Assembly: GCF_017357865.1 (NCBI RefSeq)
Contig: NZ_CP060096.1
Span: 186,001 to 250,000, forward strand
DNA length: 64,000 nt
Direction: 5' to 3'
Origin: Aceticella autotrophica
GTDB taxonomy: Bacteria > Bacillota > Thermoanaerobacteria > Thermoanaerobacterales > Thermoanaerobacteraceae
The translations under genes and the position numbers were made by a program. The number at the start of each line of letters is the position of its first letter. Positions within the stretch are counted from its first letter, which is position 1. The notes under the pieces are model-generated. The model searched no databases. It was not told the DNA's origin and saw only the letters and a list, made by a program, of their open reading frames with translations. Shown here in pieces: positions 24,533 to 59,502 of this stretch.

Positions 24533-27500
24533 GTTTTTAGCCTACCTATAAGGAATTTTGCTTTCCCTATTTCTACAATTAATTTACTAAATAAGGGGGT
24601 TTTTAGCCTACCTATAAGGAATTGGATACCTTTGTATTTGAACAAAATTTGCATTATTACTTCCTTGTTTTTAGCCTACCTATAAGGAATTGGATACTTC
24701 TAATCCCACATAGGTAGTTTAAGAACACTTTTTGTTTTTAGCCTACCTATAAGGAATTGGATATTTAGCAAAATATATATCAGGATTTATTTTATGGGGG
24801 GTTTTTAGCCTACCTATAAGGAATTGGCTAATTTGTCTCGTTTTTGAAGTTTTTTCTTTAGCCGGGGGTTTTTAGCCTACCTATAAGGAATTGCCTGTTC
24901 TGAGTCATTATCAAGCAATTTTTGACCAGTAGGTTTTTAGCCTACCTATAAGGAATTGCCTGTATTGTTTTGGAATGTTGGGTCGACATATGTCTGGGGG
25001 TTTTTAGCCTACCTATAAGGAATTGCTGAATTTCTGGAACATATCATTTTGCGAGACCTGACAAGTTTTTAGCCTACCTATAAGGAATTGCTGAAGATGA
25101 AGAAATTGAAAGAGGCATAGTAGCAGCGGGGGTTTTTAGCCTACCTATAAGGAATTGTTTGTTAAATCATTCTATATAATGGAAAGGAGTTGTCCATGTT
25201 TTTAGCCTACCTATAAGGAATTGTTTGATTTTTTTAAAGACTCCCTATAGAAACTATATCACAGTTTTTAGCCTACCTATAAGGAATTGTTTGCTTCCTC
25301 TTGTAACAAGATATAAAATAGCTCCGGGGGTTTTTAGCCTACCTATAAGGAATTGTTTCGTTGGAGGAGCTCCTACATATCCGCCATCGCCTCGCGTTTT
25401 TAGCCTACCTATAAGGAATTGTTTCTAGTATTCTTCTTGAAACCCGAGAAGACCCTGTTGAAGGTTTTTAGCCTACCTATAAGGAATTGTTTCGGTGAAA
25501 TAGGAAATTATCGTACATTGACAACTGAGGTTTTTAGCCTACCTATAAGGAATTGTTTCTTTGATTTTTCTCTTGTAAGCTTCTTTCCTCCTGTTCGTTT
25601 TTAGCCTACCTATAAGGAATTGTTTCACTATAATACAACTTATGCACCTAGCTTTACAACAGGGTTTTTAGCCTACCTATAAGGAATTGTTTCTTTTCTT
25701 CAGGAGAAAAAATATGAGTATGATTTTTTAGTTTTTAGCCTACCTATAAGGAATTGTTTCTGAGTTTAGCTCTCTCAAGTGACTACAATGGAGAAGGTTT
25801 TTAGCCTACCTATAAGGAATTGTTTCTGCGAGTGATACGGTCAGAGCGGCAATAGATGCAAGTTTTTAGCCTACCTATAAGGAATTGTTTCTTCTATCAC
25901 ATTAACTTTATCATTTATTAACAGCGGGGGTTTTTAGCCTACCTATAAGGAATTGTAGAATTCTGCCTGCCTTACTGCTTTTCTGTTTGCGGGGGTTTTT
26001 AGCCTACCTATAAGGAATTGTTACTCGAAACAACCCGATAGACATATGTTTCCGGTACACGTTTTTAGCCTACCTATAAGGAATTGTTACATATCCAAGG
26101 TATATCCGTATTTTATCGACATGAAAGGTTTTTAGCCTACCTATAAGGAATTGTTACATATATTTTCATCCTATAGCACCGCCTAATACTTTACGTTTTT
26201 AGCCTACCTATAAGGAATTGTTACTCTGGTCGTACACTTTAATATTGTTCAAATCAGTATCGTTTTTAGCCTACCTATAAGGAATTGTTACCACTCCCTT
26301 TAGATATTTTACCATTGCGGTAATGGGGGTTTTTAGCCTACCTATAAGGAATTGAAACAGGGGTAGGAGGAGGTGATAATAATGCCAGCAATACGTTTTT
26401 AGCCTACCTATAAGGAATTGAAACTCTTCGTCCAATTCAATTCCATACGTTAGGGCATGTTTTTAGCCTACCTATAAGGAATTGAAACTTATTGTCTGTT
26501 GCAGTGTTTGCAACAGCGCCTACATGTTTTTAGCCTACCTATAAGGAATTGAAACTATTCCTCCTTATAATTTTTTTTAGGCGTATCGGCTGTTTTTAGC
26601 CTACCTATAAGGAATTGAAACATTTATAAAGCTTCTCTGCCCAAGGCTTCATTTTACCGTTTTTAGCCTACCTATAAGGAATTGAAACGTGATGATCAGA
26701 TAAAAGCTGGAGAAGCAATGTTACGTTTTTAGCCTACCTATAAGGAATTGAAACATAGCTGACGGTAAACCGGTACAGGACGAGGCATTTGGTTTTTAGC
26801 CTACCTATAAGGAATTGAAACTGGATAAATTTTATACTGTTCAAGAAGTCGTTGAAATGTTTTTAGCCTACCTATAAGGAATTGAAACAGTTGTTAATCG
26901 TCTTTATGAACATGAAAAGCCACTCAGTTTTTAGCCTACCTATAAGGAATTGAAACTTTTCTATCTTGTGTTGTTCTTCTGCTGCTTCTTTTGGTTTTTA
27001 GCCTACCTATAAGGAATTGAAACAGCTTTGCGATCTGATTTTCTATTTTCTCAATTTCTTTGTTTTTAGCCTACCTATAAGGAATTGAAACTTTAATTTT
27101 TGATACATTTCACTATCAAAAATTTTTCTGTTTTTAGCCTACCTATAAGGAATTGAAACCTTTAAAAGTGATGGTACATTTGAATGTAGCAATGCAGTTT
27201 TTAGCCTACCTATAAGGAATTGAAACTTATAAAATTAAACCTGGCCAATTTGTAACATCTCTGTTTTTAGCCTACCTATAAGGAATTGAAACCTTTTTAA
27301 TACTTTTATTCTTTCCATTTTACATACCTCGTTTTTAGCCTACCTATAAGGAATTGAAACTGTAGAGAGCTTTCTTGGATTCTTCTTCTTTTTCTATGTT
27401 TTTAGCCTACCTATAAGGAATTGAAACGAAGCAAGCGATTGATCTTGCCACGCTTTCCGCAATGCGTTTTTAGCCTACCTATAAGGAATTGAAACCAACA

Positions 27501-28482
27501 TTTTTGCATGGTCGTCTTAAGGTTTACTGGTTTTTAGCCTACCTATAAGGAATTGAAACTTGAAAATATATTGTATAGTGAAGATTTAAAAATTAGTTTT
27601 TAGCCTACCTATAAGGAATTGAAACATTGCGCAGGTAATAACTGATACAAGTGGTAATATCGTTTTTAGCCTACCTATAAGGAATTGAAACTTACCCCAT
27701 CAACAGCAAGATTATATCCAATTTCATGTTTTTAGCCTACCTATAAGGAATTGAAACTAAATTCCTGAAACGGCATAAATGGATTTGGTCTTTGTTTTTA
27801 GCCTACCTATAAGGAATTGAAACATCATTAATTTCACTTTCCTTTCTTTTCTTTTTTATATAGTTTTTAGCCTACCTATAAGGAATTGAAACTTGTTTTT
27901 GTATGCCTTATTCTCTTACCAAATAAATGTTTTTAGCCTACCTATAAGGAATTGAAACAGACTTATTTTAAAGCGGGGCAACCTGTGAATTTAAGTTTTT
28001 AGCCTACCTATAAGGAATTGAAACTGTTGTTGTTGGCGTGTATACTGCTGCAAACCAACCGTTTTTAGCCTACCTATAAGGAATTGAAACTATTCTTTTG
28101 ACTGGACAAATTTTACAAATATTCTCAAGTTTTTAGCCTACCTATAAGGAATTGAAACAAAACATCTTTTACTCCTGTCACATTTGATATTTATAAGTTT
28201 TTAGCCTACCTATAAGGAATTGAAACCATGCACATACAATTTATTATCTTTTTTACAAATGTCGTTTTTAGCCTACCTATAAGGAATTGAAACTGTCCTA
28301 AGTCTTGTGAAACTTGTCGTACGGCTTTACGGTTTTTAGCCTACCTATAAGGAATTGAAACTCTTTTAATACTTGGTATAATTGTTGCTTTTGTTCCGTT
28401 TTTAGCCTACCTATAAGGAATTGAAACTAGGCAAAGCAAAAAATACTCATTTTGCCTATGCCCAGTTTTTAGCCTACCTATA
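24533..28482 (+). CRISPR. Type I-B CRISPR array, 60 repeats, with stepwise changing repeat 3' ends
   Basis: Repeat units of 30 bp begin GTTTTTAG and in the older part end ATTGAAAC; start-to-start distance is 64-69 bp and spacers are 34-39 bp. I count 59 full repeats and a last one cut after 18 bases (28465-28482). Repeats 28-59 (26329 onward) all end AAAC. Repeats 1-27 share only the first 25-26 bases; their last four bases are, from old to new, TTAC (repeats 23-27), TAGA (22), TTTC (13-21), TTTG (10-12), CTGA (8-9), CCTG (6-7), GCTA (5), GATA (2-4), and repeat 1 differs in its last five. Small frames inside the array are not genes. Confidence 0.98.
24595..26358 (+). repeat. Nine leader-marked repeats (GGGG or AGGGG in front) at the points where the repeat end changes
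   Basis: Repeats starting at 24599, 24801, 24868, 25000, 25132, 25330, 25930, 25995 and 26329 are preceded by GGGG; the first of these by AGGGG. No other internal repeat is. Each is the oldest member of its end-type group, and the next repeat toward the leader has a new end. With the extra bases each marked copy restores a 30-bp duplicated unit (4+26 or 5+25). At such junctions the true spacer starts right after ATTG (or ATT) and stops before the G run, giving 35-38 bp, the normal size. Confidence 0.93.
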
Positions 28483-41524: not shown

Positions 41525-43003
41525 ATTCCTTTAACAAATATTCAGTTAGCTTATTTGATGGGTAGAAATGAAAATTACGAGTTAGGTGGAGTATCAGCAC
41601 ATATTTATTATGAAGTAAATACTAAACTTGATATAGTAAGATTAGAAAATGCATTAAACAAAGTTATTGAAAATCAACCAATGCTTAGAGCTGTAATTGA
41701 TAAAAATGGCGAGCAAAGAATCTTATCAAAAGTACCATGGTATGTAATTGAAGTTTCTGATTTGCGAAAATTTGATGAGTTTCAGCGAAAACAATATATT
41801 ATGAATAAAAGAAAAGCTATGGTACATTATGTATTTCCACTTAATAATTGGCCAATGTTTAAATTTGAGATTTCAAGGCTATCGGATAATATAAATATTT
41901 TACATTTTAGTTTAGATCTTTTAATAGCAGATGGTAGTAGTATAGCAATATTACTAAAAGAATTATTAGCTTATTATTGGAATGAAAGTGAGCCAAAATC
42001 TATTCAAAATAGTTTCGAAGAATTTATATCGCAATTTTTAAAAGCGAAAAATGGTAAAACTTATTTAAGAGATAAAAACTATTGGATACGGAGAATGGCT
42101 GACTTTCCGTTAGCACCAGAATTACCATATAAATCAAAAAATAATATAATCAATCCTACATTTAATAAATTATTCTTTAAGATTTCTAACATACATTGGT
42201 CTGTTATAAAAGAAAAAGCAAATAAACATAATGTATCTCCCAATATTGTTATATCTACTATCTACGCTAAAGTATTGAGCTACTGGAGCAATCAAAGTAA
42301 ATTTGGAATCAATTTTACTATTTCAGGCCGAAGAAAAATAAAAAAAGATATGGATAAGATAATTGGGAATTTTACAACTATAATGCCAATTGAAATTTCA
42401 ATAGAACAATCAGGAATAAGTATATTTTGGGAGGAAGTTAAAAAAGTAAGATCTACTTTTAATAATACATATAAACATATGTCATATGATGGTATGGAAG
42501 TGTTAAGTTTAATTGCAAAACATCATAATTTAACAAAGGCAGCAGTAATGCCGGTTGTGTTTACAAGTCTATTGTTTGAGAATGCCATGTTTGATTCCAT
42601 AAAAGAAGTTGGTGAAATTGTTTACGATATTAGCCAGACACCTCAAGTATATTTAGAATGTCGGATTATGGAAGTCAAAAGTGAATTATGGATTAATTGG
42701 GATTTTGTTGAGGAGTTGTTTGATAAAGAAACGATTAATGAGATGTTTGAACAGTTTAAACGTATGATTATTCAATTAGCAACGACAGATGAAAACATAG
42801 ATAATGTACTAAAATTAAATGAAAAAGATAAAGAATTAATAGATAAATATAATAAAACGTATAAAGAAATACAAGAAACTACATTAGCACAATTAATCAA
42901 ACCTTCTTTTGAACGGTTTAAGGATAAGATAGCAGTAAAAGATAATACAAACAGCTTAAGTTATGATGAACTTGATAAACTTTCTGATGAATGCGGTATG
43001 TAA
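41525..43003 (+). pseudogene. NRPS fragment 1: heterocyclization domain and start of adenylation domain
   Basis: The frame begins with PLTNIQLAYLMGRNENYELGG, the usual start of a Cy (condensation/heterocyclization) domain, but no ATG precedes it; the first ATG (41555) is 10 codons inside. The Cy active motif DxxxxDxxS is present as DLLIADGSS (near 41910-41940). Cy domains join and cyclise Cys, Ser or Thr into thiazoline or oxazoline rings. From about 42880 an adenylation domain starts (LSYDELDKLSDE) and then breaks: about 130 residues of its core are missing and the frame shifts near 43000. Confidence 0.85.
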
Positions 43004-43436
43004 TACAATTATTGATGTTAATGAAAGATTTGAGATAGATAGCAAGGATAATTTTATTGGAATTTCTTCATTTTGTTTTGATTTATCCGTATATGATATT
43101 TTTGGAAGCATAAGTGTTGGAGCAACATTAGTATTAATTCCAGATGCCAGAGATATTTCTTATATTGTAGACACAGTAACAAAAGAAAATATAATAGTTT
43201 GGAATACGGTTCCTGCAATTATGGAGTTACTTTTAGATAGTCTAAATGATTATTATAGCAATACCTCATTAAAAAATGTTTTTTTAAGTGGAGATTGGAT
43301 TCCTTTGGATTTAAAAGATAAAATATGTGATTATTTTACCAATGCAAGGGTAATGAGTTTAGGTGGTGCTACAGAAGCATCAATTTGGTCAATATATACG
43401 GGTATCCTTTATCTAATCAGACTATATATGTATTAA
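43000..43436 (+). pseudogene. NRPS fragment 2: middle of adenylation domain
   Basis: In another frame the text resumes with NTIIDVNERFEIDSKDNFIGISS and SFCFDLSVYDIFGSISVGATLVL, the central adenylation region, and runs to SLGGATEASIWSIYT. At about 43398 it shifts again: about 16 residues expected between WSIY and the PLSNQTIYVLN segment are missing. The domain has thus lost two pieces and should not activate an amino acid. Confidence 0.82.
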
Positions 43437-45361
43437 ATTATAGAGGAGAATTATGCCCAATAGGTGTTAAAGGAGAATTATACATAGGTGGAAGGGGACT
43501 GGCAGTTGGTTATTTAAATAATGAAATGCAAACTAATAATAGTTTTATAATGCATCCATTTTTAGGGAGGTTATATAAAACAGGAGATTATGGTATTTTA
43601 AATAAAAAAGGATATATTGAATTTTTAGGAAGAAAGGATAATCAAGTAAAGATTAACGGATATAGAGTAGAACTTGGTGAAATAGAAAATACAATTAAGA
43701 AAAACAAAAAAATAAAAGAAGCAGTTGTTAGTGTGAATTTATTAAGCAATGGAAGCAATCAAATTGTAGCGTATATAGAACCTAAGGTAGTAGAAAAAGA
43801 GAAATTTAATAAAGAAACATGGAAAAGCATACTTAATGAATTAAATGAGATGAGCTTAATTTTACCAAACGAAATAACACCCGAAGAATATTTAAAAACA
43901 ATTAATTTATTGGAAAAAGTTAGTACAGAAAGTATAGGTAACATACTTTATAGAATATTAGGTGGAAATAACAAAAATTCACTGCTAAACATAAAGGAAT
44001 TTATTAAAGAGTATTCTTTAAGAGAACATTATTTAAAATTAATTAGACGATGGTTAAAAGAATTAACAAAAGAAGGCTGGGTGACTGAGTTAGATAATGA
44101 TACTTATAAATTTAATAGAGATTTGCCAGAAGATATTAATAAAAAAGAATTTAATAGGGTATTGGAACTAAACCAATCTAAGTTTTTCAAGGATTCTTTA
44201 GCTTTTATAAAGTTATGTAATGAAAATGCTATTCAAATTTTAAAAGGCGAAGAAACAGCGTTAAATTTATTATTTCCAAAAGGGATGTGGAATATAGCAG
44301 AAAATATGTATAGATATAATCCAATAGCAAAATATTATAATACTTTAGTTGTTAGTGCTGTTTCAGCATATATTAAAAATAGCAAAGGTAGAATAAAAAT
44401 ATTAGAAGTTGGTGCAGGAACAGGTGGTACAAGTGATAGTGTTCTAAAAGCCATAAATGTTATAAAGAACAAAAAGATAACTTATACTTATACTGATTTA
44501 TCAACATTTTTTACTGATGAAGCAAAAAGAATATTTGATAGATATAATTTTATAAATTATGGTTTATATAATATTGATGAAGAACCACAAAGCCAGGGAT
44601 ACAATTTGGAAGAATATGACATAATAATCGCGGCTAATGTTTTGCACGATGCTAAAAATATTTATAAAACTATGAATAATTTAAAATCATTGTTAAAACC
44701 AAATGGAGTAGTTATTATATTAGAAGCAATAGAAAATACAAGATTACAAATGGTTAGTGTGGCATTTATTGATGGATTTTCTTGTTATAATGATTTTAGG
44801 TCAGAAAAGAATGAGCCATTGCTTTCATTAGAACAATGGAATCAAGTGCTATTAGATTGTAAATTTGAAGAAATTAAATATTATCCCCTTAAAGATAATA
44901 AAGCTATATTCTATGGACAAGCAGTTATTATTGGGAGAAAGGGTGAAAAAAAAGATTATTTATCGCTTAAAGATATTGATATAATTAAATATAATATTAA
45001 AAACGAATTGCCACAATATATGATACCTAAAATATTTATTCAATTAGAGAAAATGCAATTAAATAGTAACGGTAAAATCGATAGAAAAAATCTTCCCAAA
45101 TTAAAAGAGGATATATTATATTATGACGAAATAATAAAACCTAGAAACGAAACGGAAGAAATTATTTATGATGCTTGGAAAAAAGTATTAAAAATAGATA
45201 ATTTTGGTGTTAAGGATAATTTCTTTACATTAGGTGGAGATTCCTTAAAAGCTATAAAAGTTATCTCATTATTGAGTGATAAGTATAATGTCAGTATAAA
45301 GGAAATATTTAAATGTACAACTATTGAAGAAATAGCCCAATTAATTAAAAATAAGAATTAA
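43395..45361 (+). pseudogene. NRPS fragment 3: end of adenylation domain with inserted methyltransferase, then carrier protein
   Basis: The frame carries PLSNQTIYVLNYRGELCPIG, YKTGDYG and GRKDNQVKINGYRVELGEIE (adenylation motifs). A methyltransferase domain is inserted (about 43800-44930; SAM motif EVGAGTGGTSD), as in thiazoline-forming siderophore synthetases. It then continues with the last adenylation motif NSNGKIDRKNLP and a carrier domain with the phosphopantetheine serine in LGGDSLKAIKV. With fragments 1 and 2 it forms one module Cy-A(MT)-PCP. The frame is long and intact, so a partial protein could still be made, but without a working A domain. Confidence 0.85.
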
Positions 45362-47792: not shown

Positions 47793-47831
47793 AGAAGTCA
47801 GATAAATAGAGGTGAGAGGTCAGAAATTTAA
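47790..47831. repeat. Second copy of the interspersed element found at the array end
   Basis: GTAGAAGTCAGATAAATAGA and the following GGTGAGAGGTCAGAAATTTAA match 28486-28526 almost exactly. It lies between the dead IS110 and the CARF gene. Confidence 0.6.
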
Positions 47832-47847
47832 GAGAAGGAGGTATATC

Positions 47848-49065
47848 ATGGAAACAGTATTGATTTCATTTATAGGAAAGGGCAGGACATCTGGAAATGG
47901 AAGTGGTTATATTAAAACAAAATATAAATTTGATGATAAATATACAAGTGATGAAACTGCATTTTTTGGTTCTGCTCTTTTCACATATCTAAAGTCAAAA
48001 AAACATAATATTGATAAATGGTTTATATTTGGAACAAAACAATCATCATGGTCTGAATTAGTATCATTATTAGATTCTAACCAACGAGATAAGGAAGTTG
48101 ATGATTTATATTATAAGGTTTTTGAGGAAGAGCAAAAGGGAATTAGTGATAAAATATTAAACAAATGGCAAGAATGTCTTAATAAATATATTGAAAGCAT
48201 TTGCCTAATTAAGGTTGATCCTATGGATTTTAAAGTATATGCCAATATGCTTTTAGAATTGCTGCCGGAAGATGAGATAAGTATTATATTTGATATGACA
48301 CATGCATTTAGATATATGCCTGTATTAATGGCATTTTCACTTATGTATGTTAATTGCTTTAAAAATTTTAAAGGAATAGATGTTTATTATGGTGCTCTTG
48401 AAATGGGTACTAATGATGAAAAACCGGTTGTAAAAATAGATTTTATAAATCAATTATTTTCACTTACAACTTCATATGAGATATATAAAAATTCAGGTTA
48501 TTTTCCTTCATTGCTTAAAAATATGGGTGTAGACGATAGTGAAGAAACCTATTTTAAACTTGAGATGAATAGGAGTATCAAGAGGGAAATTGAGGATTTG
48601 ATAAAAAAAATTGAGGAAGAAGAATTGGAAAACGGGGAAGGTTATATAAAAAAAGCAGCTTCAAATCTAAAAAATGAATTTAATAAAATGAATAAATTAA
48701 AATATTTAGATGAAAGGATGTTAGAAAGGGCAAATTTCTTTTATGAGAAAAAACAGTATTTGATTGCTATGACTTTACTATATGAAGCAATATTAGTTAA
48801 AGCAGAAAGGGTTTTTGAAATTAAGAGAGGACAAAATGAAACAAGAAATGATCATAATTCCAGAGTAAAAAGAGTAAAAGAAGAGATAAAATATAAACTA
48901 AATAAAAATCTTAAAGATACATTTAAAAACTTAGAATATGCAAGAAATAGTGCTGTACATGGAGAAGAGGCAAAATGCACACAAAATATTCTTGAATGTA
49001 AAAATAAATTTGATGAATTATTTTCTAACTCAAAAAAAGTTTATAACTCAATACCAGAAAATTAA
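47848..49065 (+). CDS. CRISPR-ancillary CARF-HEPN protein (TM1812/Csx1-like)
   Basis: The 405-residue protein belongs to the TM1812 family. An N-terminal CARF domain, which senses cyclic oligoadenylate, includes METVLISFIGKGR and the DxTH motif in FDMTHAFRYMP (near residue 148). The C-terminal HEPN domain has the RNase motif RNSAVH (near residue 367). In type III systems such proteins become RNases when bound by the signal. No type III effector is in the window. The ATG at 47848 follows AAGGAGG; the upstream in-frame ATG at 47812 lies inside the interspersed element and is rejected. Confidence 0.87.
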   Translation: METVLISFIGKGRTSGNGSGYIKTKYKFDDKYTSDETAFFGSALFTYLKSKKHNIDKWFIFGTKQSSWSELVSLLDSNQRDKEVDDLYYKVFEEEQKGISDKILNKWQECLNKYIESICLIKVDPMDFKVYANMLLELLPEDEISIIFDMTHAFRYMPVLMAFSLMYVNCFKNFKGIDVYYGALEMGTNDEKPVVKIDFINQLFSLTTSYEIYKNSGYFPSLLKNMGVDDSEETYFKLEMNRSIKREIEDLIKKIEEEELENGEGYIKKAASNLKNEFNKMNKLKYLDERMLERANFFYEKKQYLIAMTLLYEAILVKAERVFEIKRGQNETRNDHNSRVKRVKEEIKYKLNKNLKDTFKNLEYARNSAVHGEEAKCTQNILECKNKFDELFSNSKKVYNSIPEN

Positions 49066-50684: not shown

Positions 50685-51107
50685 ATGAAGCAAATTAATT
50701 CTAAAAAAATGTTTTTAATTTTTTCTCACCAACTTACAGATTCGCAAAAGCAGGATGCATGCTTGAATTTAAATATTAGTGAATTTATATATTTGCCTGA
50801 TAACTTACAGAGAAAATGGTCAGATATTTCTCCTTATGAAGAAACTTTGGCTTTATTTTTGCAGGACTTGCTTGAATGGCTCAAACTAAATGCTAAAAAA
50901 GATGATTATGTTCTTGTACAGGGGGATTTTGGAGCGGTTTTTTTAGTTGTGGATTTTTGCTTTAAAAATGAGCTTGTTCCTGTTTATTCTACTACAAAAA
51001 GACAAATTGTTAATGAGCATATAATTGGAAGAGATGTTCAGGTAAGCAGGATGTTTAGTCATGTGAGATTTAGAAAATATGAGAGGTGGTATAGAAATGA
51101 CTGTTAA
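50685..51107 (+). CDS. csx20: Csx20-type ring nuclease
   Basis: The 140-residue protein matches the Csx20 pattern as I know it: MFLIFSHQLTDSQKQDA at the start, EFIYLPDNLQRKWSDI, then DDYVLVQGDFGAVFLVVDFCF, LVPVYSTTKRQ and HVRFRKYE at the end. Csx20 proteins have been described as ring nucleases that degrade cyclic oligoadenylate and so switch off CARF effectors. The gene overlaps the following CARF-HEPN gene by 11 bp, so signal sensor and signal eraser are translationally coupled. Confidence 0.8.
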   Translation: MKQINSKKMFLIFSHQLTDSQKQDACLNLNISEFIYLPDNLQRKWSDISPYEETLALFLQDLLEWLKLNAKKDDYVLVQGDFGAVFLVVDFCFKNELVPVYSTTKRQIVNEHIIGRDVQVSRMFSHVRFRKYERWYRNDC

Positions 51108-52410
51108 GTTTTTTTCATTTCTTGGCACAGGTTCTTACACTAAATGTAGATATAAATTTGATGATATTGAAAGTAGCAGTAGTTGCTATGTGCAGGAAGC
51201 CCTTATTGCTATTTTATTAAAAAAGAAAGTTGATTTAAAAAGCATATTTATTTTTAAAACCAAAGAAGCTACTGATACAAATTGGAATAAAAATAAGAAA
51301 TATCCATATGAGGCAGGTTTAGATGGAGTTCTAAGTAAATATGAAAATAAGCTTAGTATAAACCCAGTGGATATACCCTCAGGACAAAATGAAGATGAGC
51401 TTTGGGAAATATTCGATAGCGTTTCACAACAGATTGATGAAGGTGATGAAATAATATTTGATATTACACATTCATTTCGCTCACTTCCAATATTGGCATT
51501 GATTATCTTGAATTATGCTAAATTCGTTAAAAAATGTGAAATAAGAGGTATATATTACGGGGCAATAGAGGCGGTTGGTAAAGAAATAAAAGATATTGAA
51601 GAGAAAGATATAGCTCCTATATTTGACTTAACACCTTTTGTAAGACTGCTTGACTGGACTGTGGGTATCGATCGCTTTATAGAAACAGGTGATGCAAGGC
51701 ATATAAATCATTTAATGAAATTGGGCACTAAAGAGTTGCACCTTAAAGGTATGAAGGATGAGAGAAATATATTAAGTGACTTTTCGCAAAAGTTAGAAAA
51801 ATATACAAAAAATGTTGCTACTTGCAGAGGTAAAGAAATCTCTAATGGTGGATTAAAGCTGAAGGATACACTTGAAGACGCTGTAAGTATAGCAGATAAG
51901 GCATATATTAAGCCGATGAAACCAGTAATAGATAGGTTAAACGATAGATTTAAAAATTTTGATAATGATGAAAATAAAAACATGCTTGAAATAGTCAAAT
52001 GGTGCAGTGAACATAACCAGATACAGCAAGGATTTACAATACTTGAAGAAGGCATTATAAGTTATCTATGTGATAAATTTAGATTTGATAAAAATATTAA
52101 AAAAGATCGTGAAATAATTGAACAAGCTATATATATTAAACATAAGTCATTGCAAAAAGATAAAGATAAATGGAGAGAAAAAGCTAAAGAAAATGAAGAT
52201 GCAATTAAAAATATTTTAAATAAATTTAACGAAGAAAACGACAAAAATTTAATAAAGGTATTATATGAAGAAATAAAGCCCATACGTAACGATATCAACC
52301 ATGCTGGATATAATGAGGGGTCTATGGATGCTGAAAAATTTGAAACAAAGCTTAAAAATCTTATTGATAAGGTTAGAAAATATATTAACCAAAATTATGA
52401 TGTGAGGTGA
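51097..52410 (+). CDS. CRISPR-ancillary CARF-HEPN protein (TM1812/Csx1-like), second
   Basis: The 437-residue protein has the same design as the one at 47848: start MTVKFFSFLGTGSYTKCRYKFDD, DxTH motif in FDITHSFRSLP (near residue 122), YYGAIEA, and a C-terminal HEPN motif RNDINH (near residue 397). It is clearly diverged in sequence from its neighbour. ATG at 51097 follows GAGAGGTGG; the in-frame ATG at 51079 is upstream of this site. It is coupled to the Csx20 gene. Confidence 0.87.
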   Translation: MTVKFFSFLGTGSYTKCRYKFDDIESSSSCYVQEALIAILLKKKVDLKSIFIFKTKEATDTNWNKNKKYPYEAGLDGVLSKYENKLSINPVDIPSGQNEDELWEIFDSVSQQIDEGDEIIFDITHSFRSLPILALIILNYAKFVKKCEIRGIYYGAIEAVGKEIKDIEEKDIAPIFDLTPFVRLLDWTVGIDRFIETGDARHINHLMKLGTKELHLKGMKDERNILSDFSQKLEKYTKNVATCRGKEISNGGLKLKDTLEDAVSIADKAYIKPMKPVIDRLNDRFKNFDNDENKNMLEIVKWCSEHNQIQQGFTILEEGIISYLCDKFRFDKNIKKDREIIEQAIYIKHKSLQKDKDKWREKAKENEDAIKNILNKFNEENDKNLIKVLYEEIKPIRNDINHAGYNEGSMDAEKFETKLKNLIDKVRKYINQNYDVR

Positions 52411-52552
52411 TAATGTGTACATAAATTTTATAGATAAATCCAGTAAAAACAATTTTAAATGATAATATCCTTGAAAAAAACTATAAAAATAGTAAAGTGT
52501 GGTGTATACAAGACAAAAAAATATATCAATAAAGAAATATTAGATAAAAAAT

Positions 52553-52580
52553 TTGACATAAAAATAAAAAGTGATAAAAT
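52553..52580 (+). promoter_or_regulatory. Promoter of the first B12-riboswitch transcript
   Basis: TTGACA (52553-52558), 16 bases, TAAAAT (52575-52580). It lies about 37 bases before the riboswitch and just outside the segment duplicated at 54447. Confidence 0.7.
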
Positions 52581-52617
52581 AAAATCAAACAGTTGATTAT
52601 AAAAACAAAATACGAAA

Positions 52618-52774
52618 ATAACAGGTGTTTAATATCAAACTTAAAAGAGAAGTCGGGTGAAATTCCCGCGCGGTCCCGCCGTTGTAATGAGGAGCTGCCT
52701 TATATTATGTCACTGGCGAAAGCTGGGAAGGCGTAAGGCGGTGATGAGTCTAAGCCAAAAGAACTGCCTGTTAT
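52618..52774 (+). promoter_or_regulatory. Cobalamin (B12) riboswitch, copy 1
   Basis: The closing stem pairs ATAACAGG (52618-52625) with CCTGTTAT (52767-52774). The core has GAAGTCGGGTGAAATTCCCGC, the GGTCCCGCC segment and CACTGGCGAAAGCTGGGAAGG in order, and the B12 box AAGCCAAAAGAACTGCCTG. All fit the cobalamin aptamer. It controls the S-layer protein gene at 52910. Confidence 0.92.
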
Positions 52775-52849
52775 TTATATCTACAGCTGCTCTACGATGG
52801 ATAGAGGCTGCTTAAGTATCAGGTAATACTTATATTTACTTGTGCCTGT

Positions 52850-52890
52850 AAAGCCTCTTAGCAAAAAAAGTTAAGAGGCTTTAAATTTTT
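52850..52890 (+). terminator. Riboswitch expression platform terminator, copy 1
   Basis: AAAGCCTCTTA pairs with TAAGAGGCTTT, followed by AAATTTTT. An upstream AGAGGCT (52803-52809) can instead pair with AGCCTCT of the first arm, offering an antiterminator. This fits transcription shut-off by B12. Confidence 0.8.
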
Positions 52891-52909
52891 AAACAAGGGG
52901 AGGAAGAAT

Positions 52910-54439
52910 ATGATTGAGATGATTGTAGGTAAAAAAAAGCACTTCTCAAAGGTATTGGCATTAATCATAGCAATGTTAATGCTGATACCAAGTATTGCAG
53001 CAACTGCTTTAGCTGCCCCGACAAATACAACAACAGCCAAACAATTTACAGACATCAAAGGACATTGGGCAGAAAAAGAAATAAATGACTGGGCATCAAA
53101 AGGTCTAATTGCCGGGTACGAAGATAACACCTTTAGACCGGACAACTCCGTAACAAGAGCAGAATTTGTAACATTTACAAACAGAGCTTTTAACTTAACA
53201 CAAACAGCAGACATAACCTTCAAAGACGTAAACAAAGCAGATTGGTTCTACAATGAAATACAAAAAGCAAAAGCTGCAAATATTGTTTCAGGTTATGATG
53301 ACAATACATTCAGACCAAACAACTTCATAACAAGAGAAGAAGCAGCAGCAATACTGACAAGGCTTTTAAAGCTTCAGCCAGTCACACAAGATGCATTAAA
53401 AGGATTTAAAGATGCATCAAACGTTTCAGACTGGGCTAAAGATGCTGTCAATACAGCCGTATACTATGGCTTAATAAAAGGCTATCCGGACAATACAATA
53501 GGACCGGATAAGCCAATAACAAGAGCAGAAACGGTTGTTATACTTAACAGGGCATTAAATTTGCAACAAACACCAACACCTTCATACTCTGTATTAACAA
53601 ATAAAGCAATTGATTATCTTCATAATCAATTCACAAAAAACGGTGCATCTGATGACTCTTATAATGGAATAAATTCTTATACAACTTATATCCTAATGCA
53701 ATCAGGTGTAGATGTAAATACATGGTTGTATAACGGTAAAACCCTTCCGGATGCTATAATCCAGATTGCCAATGGTCATATTGCCAATTCTAAAACACCG
53801 GCAAAGGCATTAGCACAGGATTATATAGCTATGAAGGCTTTGGGCAAAACTGATATAGCAGATAAGCTTGCAAATATTCTTAAAAATAAACAAACTGATA
53901 AAGGATTTGATTCAGGTGAACTATCAATTTATTCAAATATGTTTGCTTATGATATTATGTTAAGAGCCGGTTCATCTGATGTGCTTAATGCAGTTTATGC
54001 CAAGGATTATATTTTAAGCACACAATGCACGGTAGCCGGTGATGCTTATGGAAGTTGGGGAACTACATGGAGTGGAACATATTATGCCGATTTTATGGCT
54101 ACAGCAGAGGCGGTAAGGTCACTTCATTATTTAGACCCCAATGGAAATGATCCTAATATACAAAAAGCTATTAAGGATGGTTTTGATTGGATGAAAAAAC
54201 AGCAAAAAGCAGACGGCAGCTTTGTAGCTGGTATGGATGATAACCTAATAGATGCTTCAGAAATGATTTTGACCGCAAAGGTACTTGGTATTGACCCTGC
54301 TTCGATAAAGAGCAGTGACGGCAAAAGTCCGGTAGATTATTTGTTGAATAATGCAATTAATCCGGATGGCAGTTTCGGTACATGCGCTAATGCCATGGAT
54401 GCTACATGGGTGCTTTCTGCACTGAACAGCTTAAAATAG
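52910..54439 (+). CDS. S-layer-anchored cobalamin-binding-like protein (SLH plus alpha/alpha toroid)
   Basis: The 509-residue secreted protein has a signal peptide, three SLH domains (about residues 42-222) and a helical toroid domain (about 228-509): YSVLTNKAIDYLHNQF, ALAQDYIAMKALGKTD, GSWGTTWSGTYYADFMATAEAV, DWMKKQQKADGSF and NPDGSFGTCANAMDATWVLSAL. The repeated aromatic-Gly-x-Phe pattern resembles the alpha6-alpha6 barrel of transcobalamin and intrinsic factor, also shared with prenyltransferase and terpene-cyclase folds. The B12 riboswitch in front favours corrinoid binding. It lacks the beta-helix module of its relatives. Direct B12 contact residues cannot be read from sequence. Confidence 0.8.
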   Translation: MIEMIVGKKKHFSKVLALIIAMLMLIPSIAATALAAPTNTTTAKQFTDIKGHWAEKEINDWASKGLIAGYEDNTFRPDNSVTRAEFVTFTNRAFNLTQTADITFKDVNKADWFYNEIQKAKAANIVSGYDDNTFRPNNFITREEAAAILTRLLKLQPVTQDALKGFKDASNVSDWAKDAVNTAVYYGLIKGYPDNTIGPDKPITRAETVVILNRALNLQQTPTPSYSVLTNKAIDYLHNQFTKNGASDDSYNGINSYTTYILMQSGVDVNTWLYNGKTLPDAIIQIANGHIANSKTPAKALAQDYIAMKALGKTDIADKLANILKNKQTDKGFDSGELSIYSNMFAYDIMLRAGSSDVLNAVYAKDYILSTQCTVAGDAYGSWGTTWSGTYYADFMATAEAVRSLHYLDPNGNDPNIQKAIKDGFDWMKKQQKADGSFVAGMDDNLIDASEMILTAKVLGIDPASIKSSDGKSPVDYLLNNAINPDGSFGTCANAMDATWVLSALNSLK

Positions 54440-54479
54440 ATATTATTCAAACAGTTGATTATAAAAACAAAATACGAAA

Positions 54480-54636
54480 ATAACAGGTGTTTAATATCAA
54501 ACTTAAAAGAGAAGTCGGGTGAAATTCCCGCGCGGTCCCGCCGTTGTAATGAGGAGCTGCCTTATATTATGTCACTGGCGAAAGCTGGGAAGGCGTAAGG
54601 CGGTGATGAGTCTAAGCCAAAAGAACTGCCTGTTAT
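54480..54636 (+). promoter_or_regulatory. Cobalamin (B12) riboswitch, copy 2
   Basis: Same elements as copy 1, with closing stem, core and B12 box intact. It begins 41 bases after the stop of the upstream S-layer gene. Confidence 0.92.
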
Positions 54637-54710
54637 TTATATCTACAGCTGCTCTACGATGGATAGAGGCTGCTTAAGTATCAGGTAATCTTATATTTAC
54701 TTGTGCCTGT

Positions 54711-54751
54711 AAAGCCTCTTAGCAAAAAAAGTTAAGAGGCTTTAAATTTTT
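54711..54751 (+). terminator. Riboswitch expression platform terminator, copy 2
   Basis: Identical stem to copy 1, followed by AAATTTTT. It would also end transcripts coming from the gene at 52910. Confidence 0.8.
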
Positions 54752-54770
54752 AAACAAGGGGAGGAAGAAT

Positions 54771-57700
54771 ATGATTGAGATGCTTGTAGGTACAAAAAAG
54801 CGGTTTTCAAAGATATCAGCATTAATCATTGCGATATTAATGCTCATATCGAATATTGCAGCAACCGCTTTGGCTGCTCCGACAAATACAACAACAGCCA
54901 AACAATTTACAGACATCAAAGGACATTGGGCAGAAAAAGAAATAAATGACTGGATATCAAAAGGCTTAATTGCCGGCTACGAAGATAACACCTTTAGACC
55001 CGACAACCCTGTAACAAGAGCAGAATTCGTAACATTTACAGACAGAAGCAACAACCTTACACAGACAACAGACATAACCTTCAAAGACGTAAAATCGACA
55101 GACTGGTTTTATAAAGAAATACAAAAAGCAAAAGCTGCAAATATTGTTTCAGGATATGATGACAATACATTCAGACCAAACAACTTCATAACAAGAGAAG
55201 AAGCAGCAGCAATACTGACAAGGCTTTTAAAGCTTCAGCCAGTCACACAAGATGCATTAAAAGGCTTTAAAGATGCATCACAGGTTTCAGACTGGGCTAA
55301 AGATGCTGTCAATACAGCCGTATACTATGGCTTAATAAAAGGCTATCCGGACAATACAATAGGACCAGATAACTCAATAACAAGAGCAGAAACAGTTGTT
55401 ATACTTAACAGGGCATTAAAACTACAGCAAACACCAATACCATCACCAGCACAAACATCAACGATCTATGATAAAGCAGGTACTTATGGTCCACAAACAG
55501 GCATGAATACCATTAATGGAGATGTAACAATCAGCGCAGCCGATGTAACATTACAAAATACAACAATAAAAGGCAATCTCCTTATCAGCAAGGCTGTCGG
55601 AGATGGAAATGTAACACTTAAAAACGTCATCGTAGAAGGGACAACAACTGTAAATGGCGGCGGCGAACACAGCATAGTCTTAGAAGATTGCACATTAGCG
55701 CAAATAATAGTAAACAAAGATGACGGAAAAATAAGACTTGTTGCAAAAGGTGCAACAAAAGCAGATTCAGTAACATTACAATCGGGAGGAAAACTTGAAG
55801 AAGACAATGTAACAGGCAAAGGATTTACAGATGTAAGCATAGAAGGAACAAATGCACAAGTAACACTAATAGGCAATTATGACAATATAAAAGTCAATGC
55901 ACCGGGAGTATCAGTAGAAGTAGCAAGCGGAACGGTCAACAATTTAACCATAAGCGATACTGCAAAAGATTCAAAGATTAATATTGATGACGGTGTAAAA
56001 GTCAGCGTTCTTGCAGTAAATGCAGCCGCAGCAATAACAGGAAAAGGTACGATAGAAACAGCAAACATCAATGCAAATAATGTTACAATAGAGCAAAAAC
56101 CAATTAATACTAATATGGCATCAGGTATAACAGCCATAATAGGCGGTCAGTCAAGTACAGGTTCGACATCATCGAATACAGGAAATGGATGCACAGTATG
56201 GATTGCTGTTGTAGGAATGAATGGTGAGTTACTTTTCAGCCCAAAACAGGTTACTATAAAACAAGATAATAAATGGGGTATAACTGCCCTTGGTGCACTT
56301 GATGCTACAGGTCTTTCTTATGATTCTACAAGTTCTGGATGGGTTAATTCAATTGAAGGGCAAGCCAACAAAGACCTTAGCGGATGGATGTATTCAGTAA
56401 ACGGGCAAGTTCCTATGGTTTTGGCTAATAAATATAATGTTAATACTGGAGATAAAATTATATGGTGGTACAGCAAAAGTATGGCTCAGTTACCTCCTTC
56501 TTGGGATAGTCTGACATCGACGCCGACACCGACGCCAACACCAACACCGACGCCAACACCAACACCGACGCCAACACCAACACCGACGCCAACACCAACA
56601 CCGACGCCAACACCAACACCTTCATACTCTGTATTAACAAATAAAGCAATTGATTATCTTCATAATCAATTCACAAAAAACGGTGCATCCGATGATTCTT
56701 ATAATGGTATAAATGCTTATACAACTTATATCCTAATGCAATCAGGTGTAGATGTAAATACATGGGTTTATAATAATCAAACTCTTCCGGATGCTATAAT
56801 CCAGATTGCCAATGGTCATATTGCCAATTCTAAAACACCGGCAAAGGCATTAGCACAGGATTATATAGCTATGAAGGCTTTGGGCAAAACTGATATAGCA
56901 AATAACATTATAAATATTCTTAAAAACAGACAAACTGATAAGGGATTTGACAACAATCTTTATTCAGATATGCCTGCTTATGATATTATGTTAAGAGCCG
57001 GTTCATCTGATGTGCTTAATGCAGTTTATGCCAAGGATTATATTTTAAGCACACAATGCACGGTATCCGGTGATGCTTATGGAAGTTGGGGAACTACATG
57101 GAGTGGAACATATTATGCCGATTTTATGGCTACAGCAGAGGCGGTAAGGTCACTTCATTATTTAGACCCAAATGGAAATGATCCTAATATACAAAAAGCT
57201 ATTAAGGATGGTTTTGATTGGATGAAAAAACAGCAAAAAGCAGACGGCAGCTTTGTAGCTGGTATGGATGATAACCTAATAGATGCTTCAGAAATGATTT
57301 TGACCGCAAAGGTACTTGGTATTGACCCTGCTTCGATAAAGAGCAGTGGCAAAAGTCCGGTAGATTATTTGTTGAATAATGCAATTAATCCGGATGGCAG
57401 TTTCGGTACATGCGCTAATGCCATGGATGCTACATGGGTGCTTTCTGCACTGAACAGCTTGAATCAAATACCAACACCGACACCGACGCCAACACCAACG
57501 ACATATGGAATAACGGTAAATAATGCAGTATATGCAAATGTATATGCAGACAAGCAAGAAGCGGCAGCAGGAGATACAGTGACGATAAACATAAGCAATA
57601 TACAGCAAGGATATCTGTTCAAATCAATAACGGTAAAAGATAGCAGCGGGAGCCAAGTAGCAACAACAGAAGTAAAACCAGGACAGCAATATACCTTTAC

Positions 57701-59243
57701 AATGCCTGCAAGTCCAGTAACAGTATCAGTAACTTTGGAAATTGGAATCAAGGTTAATATTGCTGTTGTAGGAAAATATGGCGAGTTACTCTTTAAACCG
57801 CAGCAGGTTACTATAAAACAAGATAATAAATGGGGTATAACTGTCCTTGGTGCACTTGATGCTACAGGTCTTTCTTATGATTCTACAAGTTCTGGATGGG
57901 TTAATTCAATTGAGGGACAAGCCAACGAAGGCCTTAGCGGATGGATGTATTCGGTAAACGGTCAAGTTCCCATGGTTTTGGCTAATAAATATAATGTTAA
58001 TACTACAGATAAAATTATATGGTGGTACAGCAAAAGTATGGCTCAGCCGCCCCCTACATGGGATAGTCTGGAATCAATAATAGGCAAGATAGGTGGTATG
58101 GTCTGGAATGATGTGAATGGTAACGGCATTCTGGATACCGGAGAGAATGGAATACAAGGTGTAACAGTACAATTACAAGATGCAAATGCTAATTTGATTA
58201 AATCTGTAACAACGGATGCTGATGGTAAATATTTGTTTGATGGATTAGCAGATGCGAGTTATATTGTTGTTGTGATACCGCCAAATGCAATGGAAGAAAC
58301 ATATGACGCAGACGGTAATAAGGATAATCTGTCAATAGTAAATATTACTACAAATGGGTATGCTTATCTTGACCAGAATTTTGGGTATATAAGCTTATAC
58401 TCTGTATTAACAAATAAAGCAATTGATTATCTTCATAATCAATTCACAAAAAACGGTGCATCCGATGATTCTTATAATGGAATAAATGCTTATACAACTT
58501 ATATCCTAATGCAATCAGGTGTAGATGTAAATACATGGGTTTATAATAATCAAACCCTTCCGGATGCTATAATCCAGATTGCCAATGGTCATATTGCCAA
58601 TTCTAAAACACCGGCAAAGGCATTAGCACAGGATTATATAGCTATGAAGGCTTTGGGCAAAACTGATATAGCAAATAACATTATAAATATTCTTAAAAAC
58701 AGACAAACTGATAAGGGATTTGACAACAATCTTTATTCAGATATGCCTGCTTATGATATTATGTTAAGAGCTGGTTTATCTGATGTGCTTAATGCAGTTT
58801 ATGCCAAGGATTTTATTTTAAGTACACAGTGCAAAGTAGCCGGTGATGCATACGGAAGTTGGGGAACTACATGGAGTGGAACATATTATGCCGATTTTAT
58901 GTCTACAGCAGAGGCGGTAAGGTCACTTCATTATTTAGACCCAAATGGAACCGACCCTAATATACAAAAAGCCATTAATGATGGTTTTGATTGGATGAAA
59001 AAACAGCAAAAAGCAGATGGTAGCTTTGCAGCCGGTATGGATGATAACCTAATAGATGCTTCAGAAATGATTTTGACCGCAAAGGTACTGGGTATTGACC
59101 CTGCTTCGATAAAGAGCAGTGACGGCAAAAGCCCGGTAGATTATTTGTTGAATAAAGCAATTAATCCGGATGGCAGCTTCGGTACATGCGGTAATGCATG
59201 GGATGCTACATGGGCGCTTTCTGCACTGAACAGCTTAAAATAG
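54771..59243 (+). CDS. S-layer-anchored transcobalamin-like protein with two DUF4430 and two toroid domains
   Basis: The 1490-residue secreted protein has a signal peptide, three SLH domains, a beta-helix-like module (about residues 230-465), DUF4430 (about 471-582, VWIAVVGMNGELLF to WWYSKSMAQ), a Thr/Pro linker (582-617), toroid domain 1 (618-898), a repeat domain (910-985), a second DUF4430 (992-1101), an SdrD B-like domain (1103-1206, GMVWNDVNGNGILDTGENG) and toroid domain 2 (1208-1490). In animal transcobalamin and intrinsic factor the helical barrel and a DUF4430-like domain enclose B12 between them. Here both occur twice behind a B12 riboswitch. I infer corrinoid capture at the cell surface. 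Confidence 0.83.
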   Translation: MIEMLVGTKKRFSKISALIIAILMLISNIAATALAAPTNTTTAKQFTDIKGHWAEKEINDWISKGLIAGYEDNTFRPDNPVTRAEFVTFTDRSNNLTQTTDITFKDVKSTDWFYKEIQKAKAANIVSGYDDNTFRPNNFITREEAAAILTRLLKLQPVTQDALKGFKDASQVSDWAKDAVNTAVYYGLIKGYPDNTIGPDNSITRAETVVILNRALKLQQTPIPSPAQTSTIYDKAGTYGPQTGMNTINGDVTISAADVTLQNTTIKGNLLISKAVGDGNVTLKNVIVEGTTTVNGGGEHSIVLEDCTLAQIIVNKDDGKIRLVAKGATKADSVTLQSGGKLEEDNVTGKGFTDVSIEGTNAQVTLIGNYDNIKVNAPGVSVEVASGTVNNLTISDTAKDSKINIDDGVKVSVLAVNAAAAITGKGTIETANINANNVTIEQKPINTNMASGITAIIGGQSSTGSTSSNTGNGCTVWIAVVGMNGELLFSPKQVTIKQDNKWGITALGALDATGLSYDSTSSGWVNSIEGQANKDLSGWMYSVNGQVPMVLANKYNVNTGDKIIWWYSKSMAQLPPSWDSLTSTPTPTPTPTPTPTPTPTPTPTPTPTPTPTPTPTPSYSVLTNKAIDYLHNQFTKNGASDDSYNGINAYTTYILMQSGVDVNTWVYNNQTLPDAIIQIANGHIANSKTPAKALAQDYIAMKALGKTDIANNIINILKNRQTDKGFDNNLYSDMPAYDIMLRAGSSDVLNAVYAKDYILSTQCTVSGDAYGSWGTTWSGTYYADFMATAEAVRSLHYLDPNGNDPNIQKAIKDGFDWMKKQQKADGSFVAGMDDNLIDASEMILTAKVLGIDPASIKSSGKSPVDYLLNNAINPDGSFGTCANAMDATWVLSALNSLNQIPTPTPTPTPTTYGITVNNAVYANVYADKQEAAAGDTVTINISNIQQGYLFKSITVKDSSGSQVATTEVKPGQQYTFTMPASPVTVSVTLEIGIKVNIAVVGKYGELLFKPQQVTIKQDNKWGITVLGALDATGLSYDSTSSGWVNSIEGQANEGLSGWMYSVNGQVPMVLANKYNVNTTDKIIWWYSKSMAQPPPTWDSLESIIGKIGGMVWNDVNGNGILDTGENGIQGVTVQLQDANANLIKSVTTDADGKYLFDGLADASYIVVVIPPNAMEETYDADGNKDNLSIVNITTNGYAYLDQNFGYISLYSVLTNKAIDYLHNQFTKNGASDDSYNGINAYTTYILMQSGVDVNTWVYNNQTLPDAIIQIANGHIANSKTPAKALAQDYIAMKALGKTDIANNIINILKNRQTDKGFDNNLYSDMPAYDIMLRAGLSDVLNAVYAKDFILSTQCKVAGDAYGSWGTTWSGTYYADFMSTAEAVRSLHYLDPNGTDPNIQKAINDGFDWMKKQQKADGSFAAGMDDNLIDASEMILTAKVLGIDPASIKSSDGKSPVDYLLNKAINPDGSFGTCGNAWDATWALSALNSLK
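56516..56622 (+). repeat. Tandem Thr-Pro coding minisatellite
   Basis: About 18 Thr-Pro pairs are encoded by repeats of ACACCGACGCCAACACCA type. It forms a stiff surface linker and may vary in length by slippage. Confidence 0.85.
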
Positions 59244-59502
59244 CTTGATTTAACATCTTAATAAAAGATAAACAAGCTTTGAGAAAATAGTTTGTAAAGG
59301 GAGATATGAAATCATATCTCCCTTTTTATAATAAAATTTCAGGAAAAACATATAGTAAAATTTGACTTTATTTAATAACATGATATAATAAATTGTGTTA
59401 TTACATATAAATTCATCTTAAATAATATTCAGAAAATCTTTTAACCGTTACATTGATTTTTTCTTTAATACAGCAATAAACTTATTTCTTAAAGTATTTT
59501 AT
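59244..59502. other. Intergenic region with terminator
   Basis: Only the terminator at 59296-59328 is recognised; the rest is AT-rich without a frame. Confidence 0.5.
59296..59328 (+). terminator. Terminator after the transcobalamin-like gene
   Basis: AAAGGGAGATATGA pairs with TCATATCTCCCTTT, followed by T residues. Confidence 0.9.

Follow-up and report, generated by a model that had tools for sequence, protein, structure and literature searches.

Two identical cobalamin riboswitch aptamers around an S-layer gene of Aceticella autotrophica: the second is apparently promoterless and probably reached by read-through

Two consecutive S-layer-type genes of Aceticella autotrophica are each preceded by a cobalamin riboswitch, and the question raised by this locus was whether the second riboswitch has a transcription start of its own or is reached by transcription from the upstream gene. 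All coordinates refer to the window, i.e., the whole 64,000-nt stretch of DNA that was analysed, and all features of the locus lie on its + strand. The two aptamers (copy 1, 52606 to 52785; copy 2, 54468 to 54647) were identical RF00174 covariance-model matches (105 bits against a gathering score of 31.5, E 3e-25, model positions 1 to 189 of 189 covered), and they were separated by 1,682 nt containing gene 1 (509 aa). Each aptamer belonged to an identity tract composed of the leader plus the first 12 nt of the following gene: (i) 52585 to 52921 (337 nt) at gene 1 and (ii) 54447 to 54782 (336 nt, without the promoter) at gene 2. The leaders were 100% identical for 243 nt (52585 to 52827 and 54447 to 54689), and identity resumed past a single 1-nt deletion, with zero substitutions across the tract and the first coding mismatch at 52922. 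The −10 hexamer of copy 1 ended at 52580 and the tract began 4 nt on, which agreed with the sequence-only reading that the leader had been duplicated from just after the −10 box; that reading had correctly recognized a copied leader but had ended it at 54770, the base before the gene 2 start codon, while the identity actually ran 12 nt into the gene.

A chance repeat was ruled out by the identity over 336 nt, and an assembly artefact was judged unlikely because the copies differed by one base, their flanks differed, and the genome was a single 2.27-Mb contig. Seven RF00174 matches were found in this genome, including one in the leader upstream of a CbiM gene (C1:2221450 to 2221635), which was 79% identical to the copy 1 leader; a scan of the genome contigs for the leader core gave no match. 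Identity maintained by constraint without recent copying was rejected, since the cbiM paralogue was only 79% identical and the segment before P1, the same in copies 1 and 2, differed in the cbiM leader. Transposase-like ORFs, recognized by eye (L068, 12755 to 14121), lay immediately beside the cbiM leader, which is the closest paralogue of the two leaders in the window.

Both copies appeared to carry a complete expression platform. In copy 1, the fold placed a P13-like hairpin after the aptamer (52784 to 52810), conserved in the cbiM leader and predicted to sequester the 5′ arm of the antiterminator; the predicted antiterminator, from the nascent RNA fold, paired AGAGGCU (52803 to 52809) with AGCCUCU (52852 to 52858), and it was followed by an intrinsic terminator at 52849 to 52883 (14-bp stem, −19.6 kcal/mol). 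In copy 2, the counterparts were a predicted antiterminator at 54665 to 54719 (nascent-segment fold) and an intrinsic terminator at 54710 to 54744 (scan plus fold). The 1-nt deletion of copy 2 sat in the antiterminator loop, reducing it from 9 to 8 nt (−24.0 versus −23.1 kcal/mol in the nascent segment), and by folding both platforms were intact, with terminator and antiterminator predicted to be mutually exclusive in each. Because the nascent RNA folded into the antiterminator and the full RNA into the terminator in both copies, both look like functional OFF switches in these models. The terminator tail was U-poor (UUUAAAUUUUU), which was counted against reading the locus as a single transcription unit.

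The two copies differed in what stood before them. Copy 1 was preceded by the promoter TTGACA-16-TAAAAT with an extended −10 (TGA) at 52553 to 52580 (11 of 12 consensus positions), the strongest promoter-like site of the consensus scan in 52300 to 54900. The promoter block TTGACA...GTGATAAAATAAAATCAA was kept in the paralogous cbiM leader, where the stretch between the start site and P1 had diverged; the block missing at copy 2 is thus a conserved promoter and the copy 1 layout the ancestral one, and the loss of this block coincides exactly with the boundary of the duplication. Promoter strength was scored with one approximate sigma-A matrix over −120 to +15 of each riboswitch. The scores were 13.9 for copy 1, 13.9 for cbiM, and 12.38, 12.4, 12.4, and 14.94 for the remaining four; a score as high occurred in no more than 0.07% of 3,000 coding windows for each of these six and in none for copy 1. 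Copy 2 scored 5.84, a coding-background value that 45% of the same windows attained. The riboswitch of the DUF4430-ECF locus (L072) scored 6.4 with a window of −120 to −5 and 14.9 with −120 to +15, since its promoter overlaps the first model positions, while copy 2 stayed at 5.84 in both.

No + strand promoter-like site was listed by the consensus scan in 54400 to 54500, and the best + strand site within 52910 to 54771 scored 9.0 (at 53516), whereas the gene 3 and gene 1 promoters scored 13.7 to 13.9. A weak junction candidate seen by eye, TAGATA-17-TATAAA (54437 to 54465), matched 9 of 12 positions and had no T at −7. A strong transcription start between 54400 and 54480, named in advance by the sequence-only reading as the observation that would speak against it, was sought by sequence and not found; its claim that the second riboswitch has no promoter of its own gains support from the score of copy 2 and from the missing promoter block.

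The junction between the genes was equally bare. The gene 1 stop codon occupied 54437 to 54439 and leader copy 2 began 8 nt after the stop; the 7 nt in between (54440 to 54446) held neither a terminator, by hairpin scan, nor a promoter match. The only other nearby hairpin of the scan (54393 to 54409, 5 pairs) lay inside gene 1 and had a poor T tail. Downstream of gene 2, a probable intrinsic terminator at 59296 to 59325 (−19.1 kcal/mol, z −5.9, then U; unlisted by the consensus scan) would end a two-gene unit. A third SLH gene (gene 3, 59602) was considered as a further member and rejected, because it followed this probable terminator and had its own promoter at 59362 (11 of 12); no RF00174 match was found at gene 3.

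We therefore favor, with a probability of roughly three in four, the reading that 52587 to 59325 forms one B12-repressed transcription unit with the single promoter at 52553 to 52580, in which copy 2 would be reached by read-through. That copy 2 probably acts on read-through from the gene at 52910, as had been proposed from the sequence, is consistent with the promoterless copy 2, the terminator-free junction, and the short-gene/long-gene order seen in relatives (see below).

The comparison was extended to 56 homologous loci. A same-strand RF00174 match stood upstream in 48 of them, with ORF(s) of >70 aa between riboswitch and gene in 11 of the 48; the remaining eight comprised six with at most 500 bp of upstream DNA to search plus two true misses (L086 and L092). 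A same-strand EcfT homologue was found in 44/56 loci, and EcfT together with an EcfA ATPase in 40/56; in the window's genome, the DUF4430-EcfT-EcfA-EcfS set stood apart, at a locus that has its own riboswitch (L072, see above). The two Desulfofundulus loci (L084 and L085) displayed the order riboswitch, riboswitch, short SLH/alpha gene, long alpha/DUF4430/SLH gene, DUF4430 protein, EcfT, EcfA, and EcfS, and the L084 short gene shared 52% identity with gene 1 across 286 residues (alpha domain). This short-gene/long-gene order stands in one operon behind a single riboswitch region, which supports the read-through reading.

Other riboswitch pairs fell into contiguous and gene-separated ones. Contiguous pairs, with no real gene inside, occurred at L084, L085, L104, L106, L109, L113, L117, and the cbiQ/cbiM locus L078: the second copy had no promoter match in 8/8 (scores at most 6.54), and the first copy reached at least 10 in only 4/8 (other lineages), so that, with the first promoter missed by the matrix in half of them, a missing match counts as weak evidence outside the window's genome. 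Two same-strand RF00174 matches within 2.5 kb occurred in 5/61 genomes. The four other gene-separated pairs were as follows: (i) riboswitch–cobA–riboswitch–btuF in G004 (second promoter 12.31, inside the aligned duplicated stretch); (ii) the same order in G008 (12.31); (iii) riboswitch–cobA–riboswitch–ABC in L093 (11.62); and (iv) riboswitch–GrdA/DUF5940–riboswitch–SSF/GrdB in G047 (L082), whose second copy scored 2.53 without a promoter match. The second copy thus had its own promoter in three of the four, L082 being the exception. The window locus resembled G004 and G008 in having two cobalamin riboswitches (90 to 93% identical there) split by one gene, as also in L093, but differed from all three in that their second riboswitch owns a promoter; it resembled G047, where the second riboswitch starts 20 nt past the upstream stop codon, but the genes there were of glycine/betaine reductase type. 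The window locus, as judged from these sequences, shares its gene-separated layout with other pairs of its family and its putatively promoterless second switch with contiguous doubles. In two same-family genomes, a parallel duplication was represented by cobA and btuF riboswitches (L081, 6049 to 7313; L080, 7382 to 8543) that are 90 to 93% identical and each have a promoter, retained in G004 inside the aligned stretch.

These comparisons bear on three alternatives to a single read-through unit. A cryptic or alternative-sigma promoter in the last part of gene 1 or in the junction would make the locus two separately transcribed riboswitch genes; the clear promoter before each riboswitch in G004 and G008 (12.3 at the second) speaks for it, as do the moderate site at 53516 and the weak junction sites, but copy 2 scored inside the coding background against at least 12.38 for the genome's six other riboswitches, and the promoter block ended where the duplication did, so we hold this unlikely. 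The terminator-free position of copy 2 directly past the gene 1 stop also suits a role mainly as the B12-dependent terminator of the gene 1 message rather than in control of gene 2, gene 1 having no other terminator; yet the copied tract includes a ribosome-binding site and the gene 2 start codon, as in a 5′ leader, and with the two roles compatible in any case, this explanation was given very little weight.

Copy 2 might instead be a recent duplication relic, either inert or lowering gene 2 expression without useful regulation, and liable to loss by recombination between the 336-nt repeats. Leaders without substitutions beside coding sequence that differs by 8 to 20% in patches point to recent copying or conversion, and the comparison set included no second genome of the window's genus that could show conservation. 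Against a relic stand the intact aptamer and platform of copy 2 and the recurrence of double riboswitches in this gene family, at 8 of the 48 loci with an upstream riboswitch; such an origin without function seems rather improbable to us, and the single unit with read-through into copy 2 is retained as the preferred reading.

The origin of the second leader could be traced in part. The 5′ coding sequence of gene 2 nearly matched that of gene 3 for about 180 nt from the start, whereas the leader and the initial 12 coding nt of gene 2 were those of gene 1; a gene-3-like 5′ coding sequence behind a gene 1 leader indicates that the leader was copied onto, or converted before, a gene-3-like SLH gene without the promoter. 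Recombination would accordingly have placed the transcribed leader, but not the promoter, in front of gene 2. Since direct repeats now flank gene 1, recombination between them would delete gene 1 and put gene 2 directly under the promoter. At least six SLH-type genes with a common ribosome-binding site and start region were noted (28711, 32535, 52910, 54771, 59602, and G000:C1:358044), only two of which carry a riboswitch; SLH domains were checked for 52910, 54771, and 59602. The patchy identity suggests ongoing gene conversion among SLH-type genes.

Several other features lay in the same window: (i) a CRISPR array with 32 listed RF01315 repeats at 26329 to 28427 (− strand), flanked by an ORF cluster and an SLH gene; (ii) two TIGR02221/DxTHG CRISPR-associated ORFs plus a Csx20 gene (47812 to 49065, 50685 to 51107, and 51079 to 52410) directly upstream of the riboswitch locus; and (iii) overlapping ORFs in different frames at 41555 to 45361, the last of which (43385 to 45361) started inside an NRPS-type adenylation domain, so that this gene may be frameshift-split.

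The products of the two riboswitch genes were compared at the domain and structure levels. Gene 1 (52910 to 54439, 509 aa) encoded three SLH domains plus an alpha/alpha-barrel resembling the transcobalamin alpha domain, and no beta (DUF4430) domain was found by Pfam. Gene 2 (54771 to 59243, 1490 aa) encoded three SLH domains, two DUF4430, one SdrD_B, and two alpha/alpha-barrel domains. SLH (PF00395) gave three stretches in each of genes 1, 2, and 3, and Pfam at E 0.01 listed DUF4430 but no vertebrate B12-binding family on the gene products. The alpha/alpha-barrel model (mean pLDDT 94.5) aligned best with terpene cyclases by VIA-align (Z 20 to 21), with intrinsic factor, haptocorrin, and transcobalamin at Z 17.7 to 18.2. 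The AlphaFold model of the gene 2 alpha+beta region (residues 619 to 1102) had a mean pLDDT of 85.8, with low values in the linker. Searched against the PDB by Foldseek, it gave transcobalamin, haptocorrin, and intrinsic factor in all 13 top places (E 2.7e-8 to 8.2e-6), while VIA-align again placed cyclases above haptocorrin (21.6 vs. 19.1); the haptocorrin alignment spanned both domains at 12.4 Å rmsd, so the domain placement differs. An identity of the alpha domain as a terpene cyclase is disfavored by the Foldseek result for alpha+beta and the riboswitch/ECF context, though VIA-align ranks cyclases higher (21 vs. 18). The gene 2 product, as modelled, had the transcobalamin-type architecture, an alpha/alpha6-barrel plus a beta domain.

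On these models, genes 1 and 2 probably encode S-layer-anchored relatives of transcobalamin that capture B12. From the Foldseek matches and the riboswitch/ECF context, of which the context is the stronger evidence, we infer that B12 or another corrinoid is captured at the cell surface on behalf of an ECF transporter. The likeness to the vertebrate carriers transcobalamin, haptocorrin, and intrinsic factor lies in the gene 2 alpha+beta fold; unlike them, the window proteins are bacterial and SLH-anchored, with a Flg_new_2-type domain between alpha and beta. With Bacteroides BtuG, as described in the available text of PMC6143338, they share a riboswitch-controlled uptake locus and a surface-exposed B12-binding protein (B12 binding being BtuG's and only predicted here), but BtuG is an outer-membrane lipoprotein, and that text states that no BtuG homologues were found outside Bacteroidetes. 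In the literature searched, which did not include most subscription journals, no paper was found that links S-layer homology to a cobalamin riboswitch, transcobalamin-like proteins to ECF, or transcobalamin to the S-layer in Firmicutes, and none, within the text available for search, on DUF4430 in bacterial B12 uptake. SLH proteins with transcobalamin-like alpha and DUF4430 domains (L084 to L139) almost always had a cobalamin riboswitch upstream and usually ECF genes nearby, and this family may be a B12-capture module of many anaerobic Firmicutes.

Riboswitches in series are themselves known. According to the accessible portion of the tandem-riboswitch review PMC9481103, 26 AdoCbl doublets were counted as pseudo-cooperative, and tandems were accepted only without an intervening ORF, gaps of >300 nt being excluded; PMC12452182, in the part available, counts only riboswitches in one intergenic region. 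The window pair resembles the pseudo-cooperative tandems of the former (TPP, AdoCbl, and others) in having two complete like riboswitches in series, each with its own aptamer and terminator, and a steeper response would likewise be expected; it differs in the complete 509-codon gene between them, which places it beyond the no-ORF, <300-nt definition. As far as these criteria are given there, like switches in series are an established principle, and neither survey covers the gene-separated form with a single promoter. No report of a gene-separated, single-promoter pair was found in the literature searched, again one without most subscription journals.

In the proposed arrangement, the order would be promoter, riboswitch 1, gene 1, promoterless riboswitch 2, gene 2, and probable terminator. 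With adenosylcobalamin bound, the post-aptamer hairpin would form, the antiterminator would be blocked, and the terminator would stop RNA polymerase; without ligand, the antiterminator would form and the polymerase would continue. A polymerase that started at the gene 1 promoter would meet one B12-sensitive terminator before gene 1 and a second before gene 2; with a read-through f at each, independent of the other, expression would follow f for gene 1 and about f squared for gene 2. Repression of gene 2 would then be steeper and deeper, in line with the tighter or graded switch predicted by the sequence-only reading, with the gene 2/gene 1 ratio falling as B12 rises: as an arithmetic example with invented values, a drop of f from 0.8 to 0.02 gives 40-fold for gene 1 and 1,600-fold for gene 2.

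A broader picture can be put forward only tentatively. The locus might be a one-promoter, two-step ladder of B12 starvation, in which moderate starvation would let transcription pass the first riboswitch and yield the short S-layer B12-binder, and the large multi-domain one would be made only in deep starvation, once both are passed; the ladder would have arisen by recombination moving a leader without its promoter, gene-separated pairs would be an uncounted class excluded by definition from tandem surveys, and the proteins would be S-layer-anchored bacterial transcobalamins feeding an ECF transporter.

If the single-unit reading is true, riboswitches could work inside a transcription unit as terminators under ligand control and determine in what ratio a single promoter yields two proteins; in addition, a leader could spread between genes as a promoterless module. 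The locus would also offer a natural test of identical switches in series: on a single RNA and at equal ligand concentration, gene 1 would report one switch and gene 2 two of them multiplied. The encoded proteins, for their part, point to a riboswitch-controlled S-layer family with a transcobalamin fold, beside ECF transporters in many anaerobic Firmicutes.
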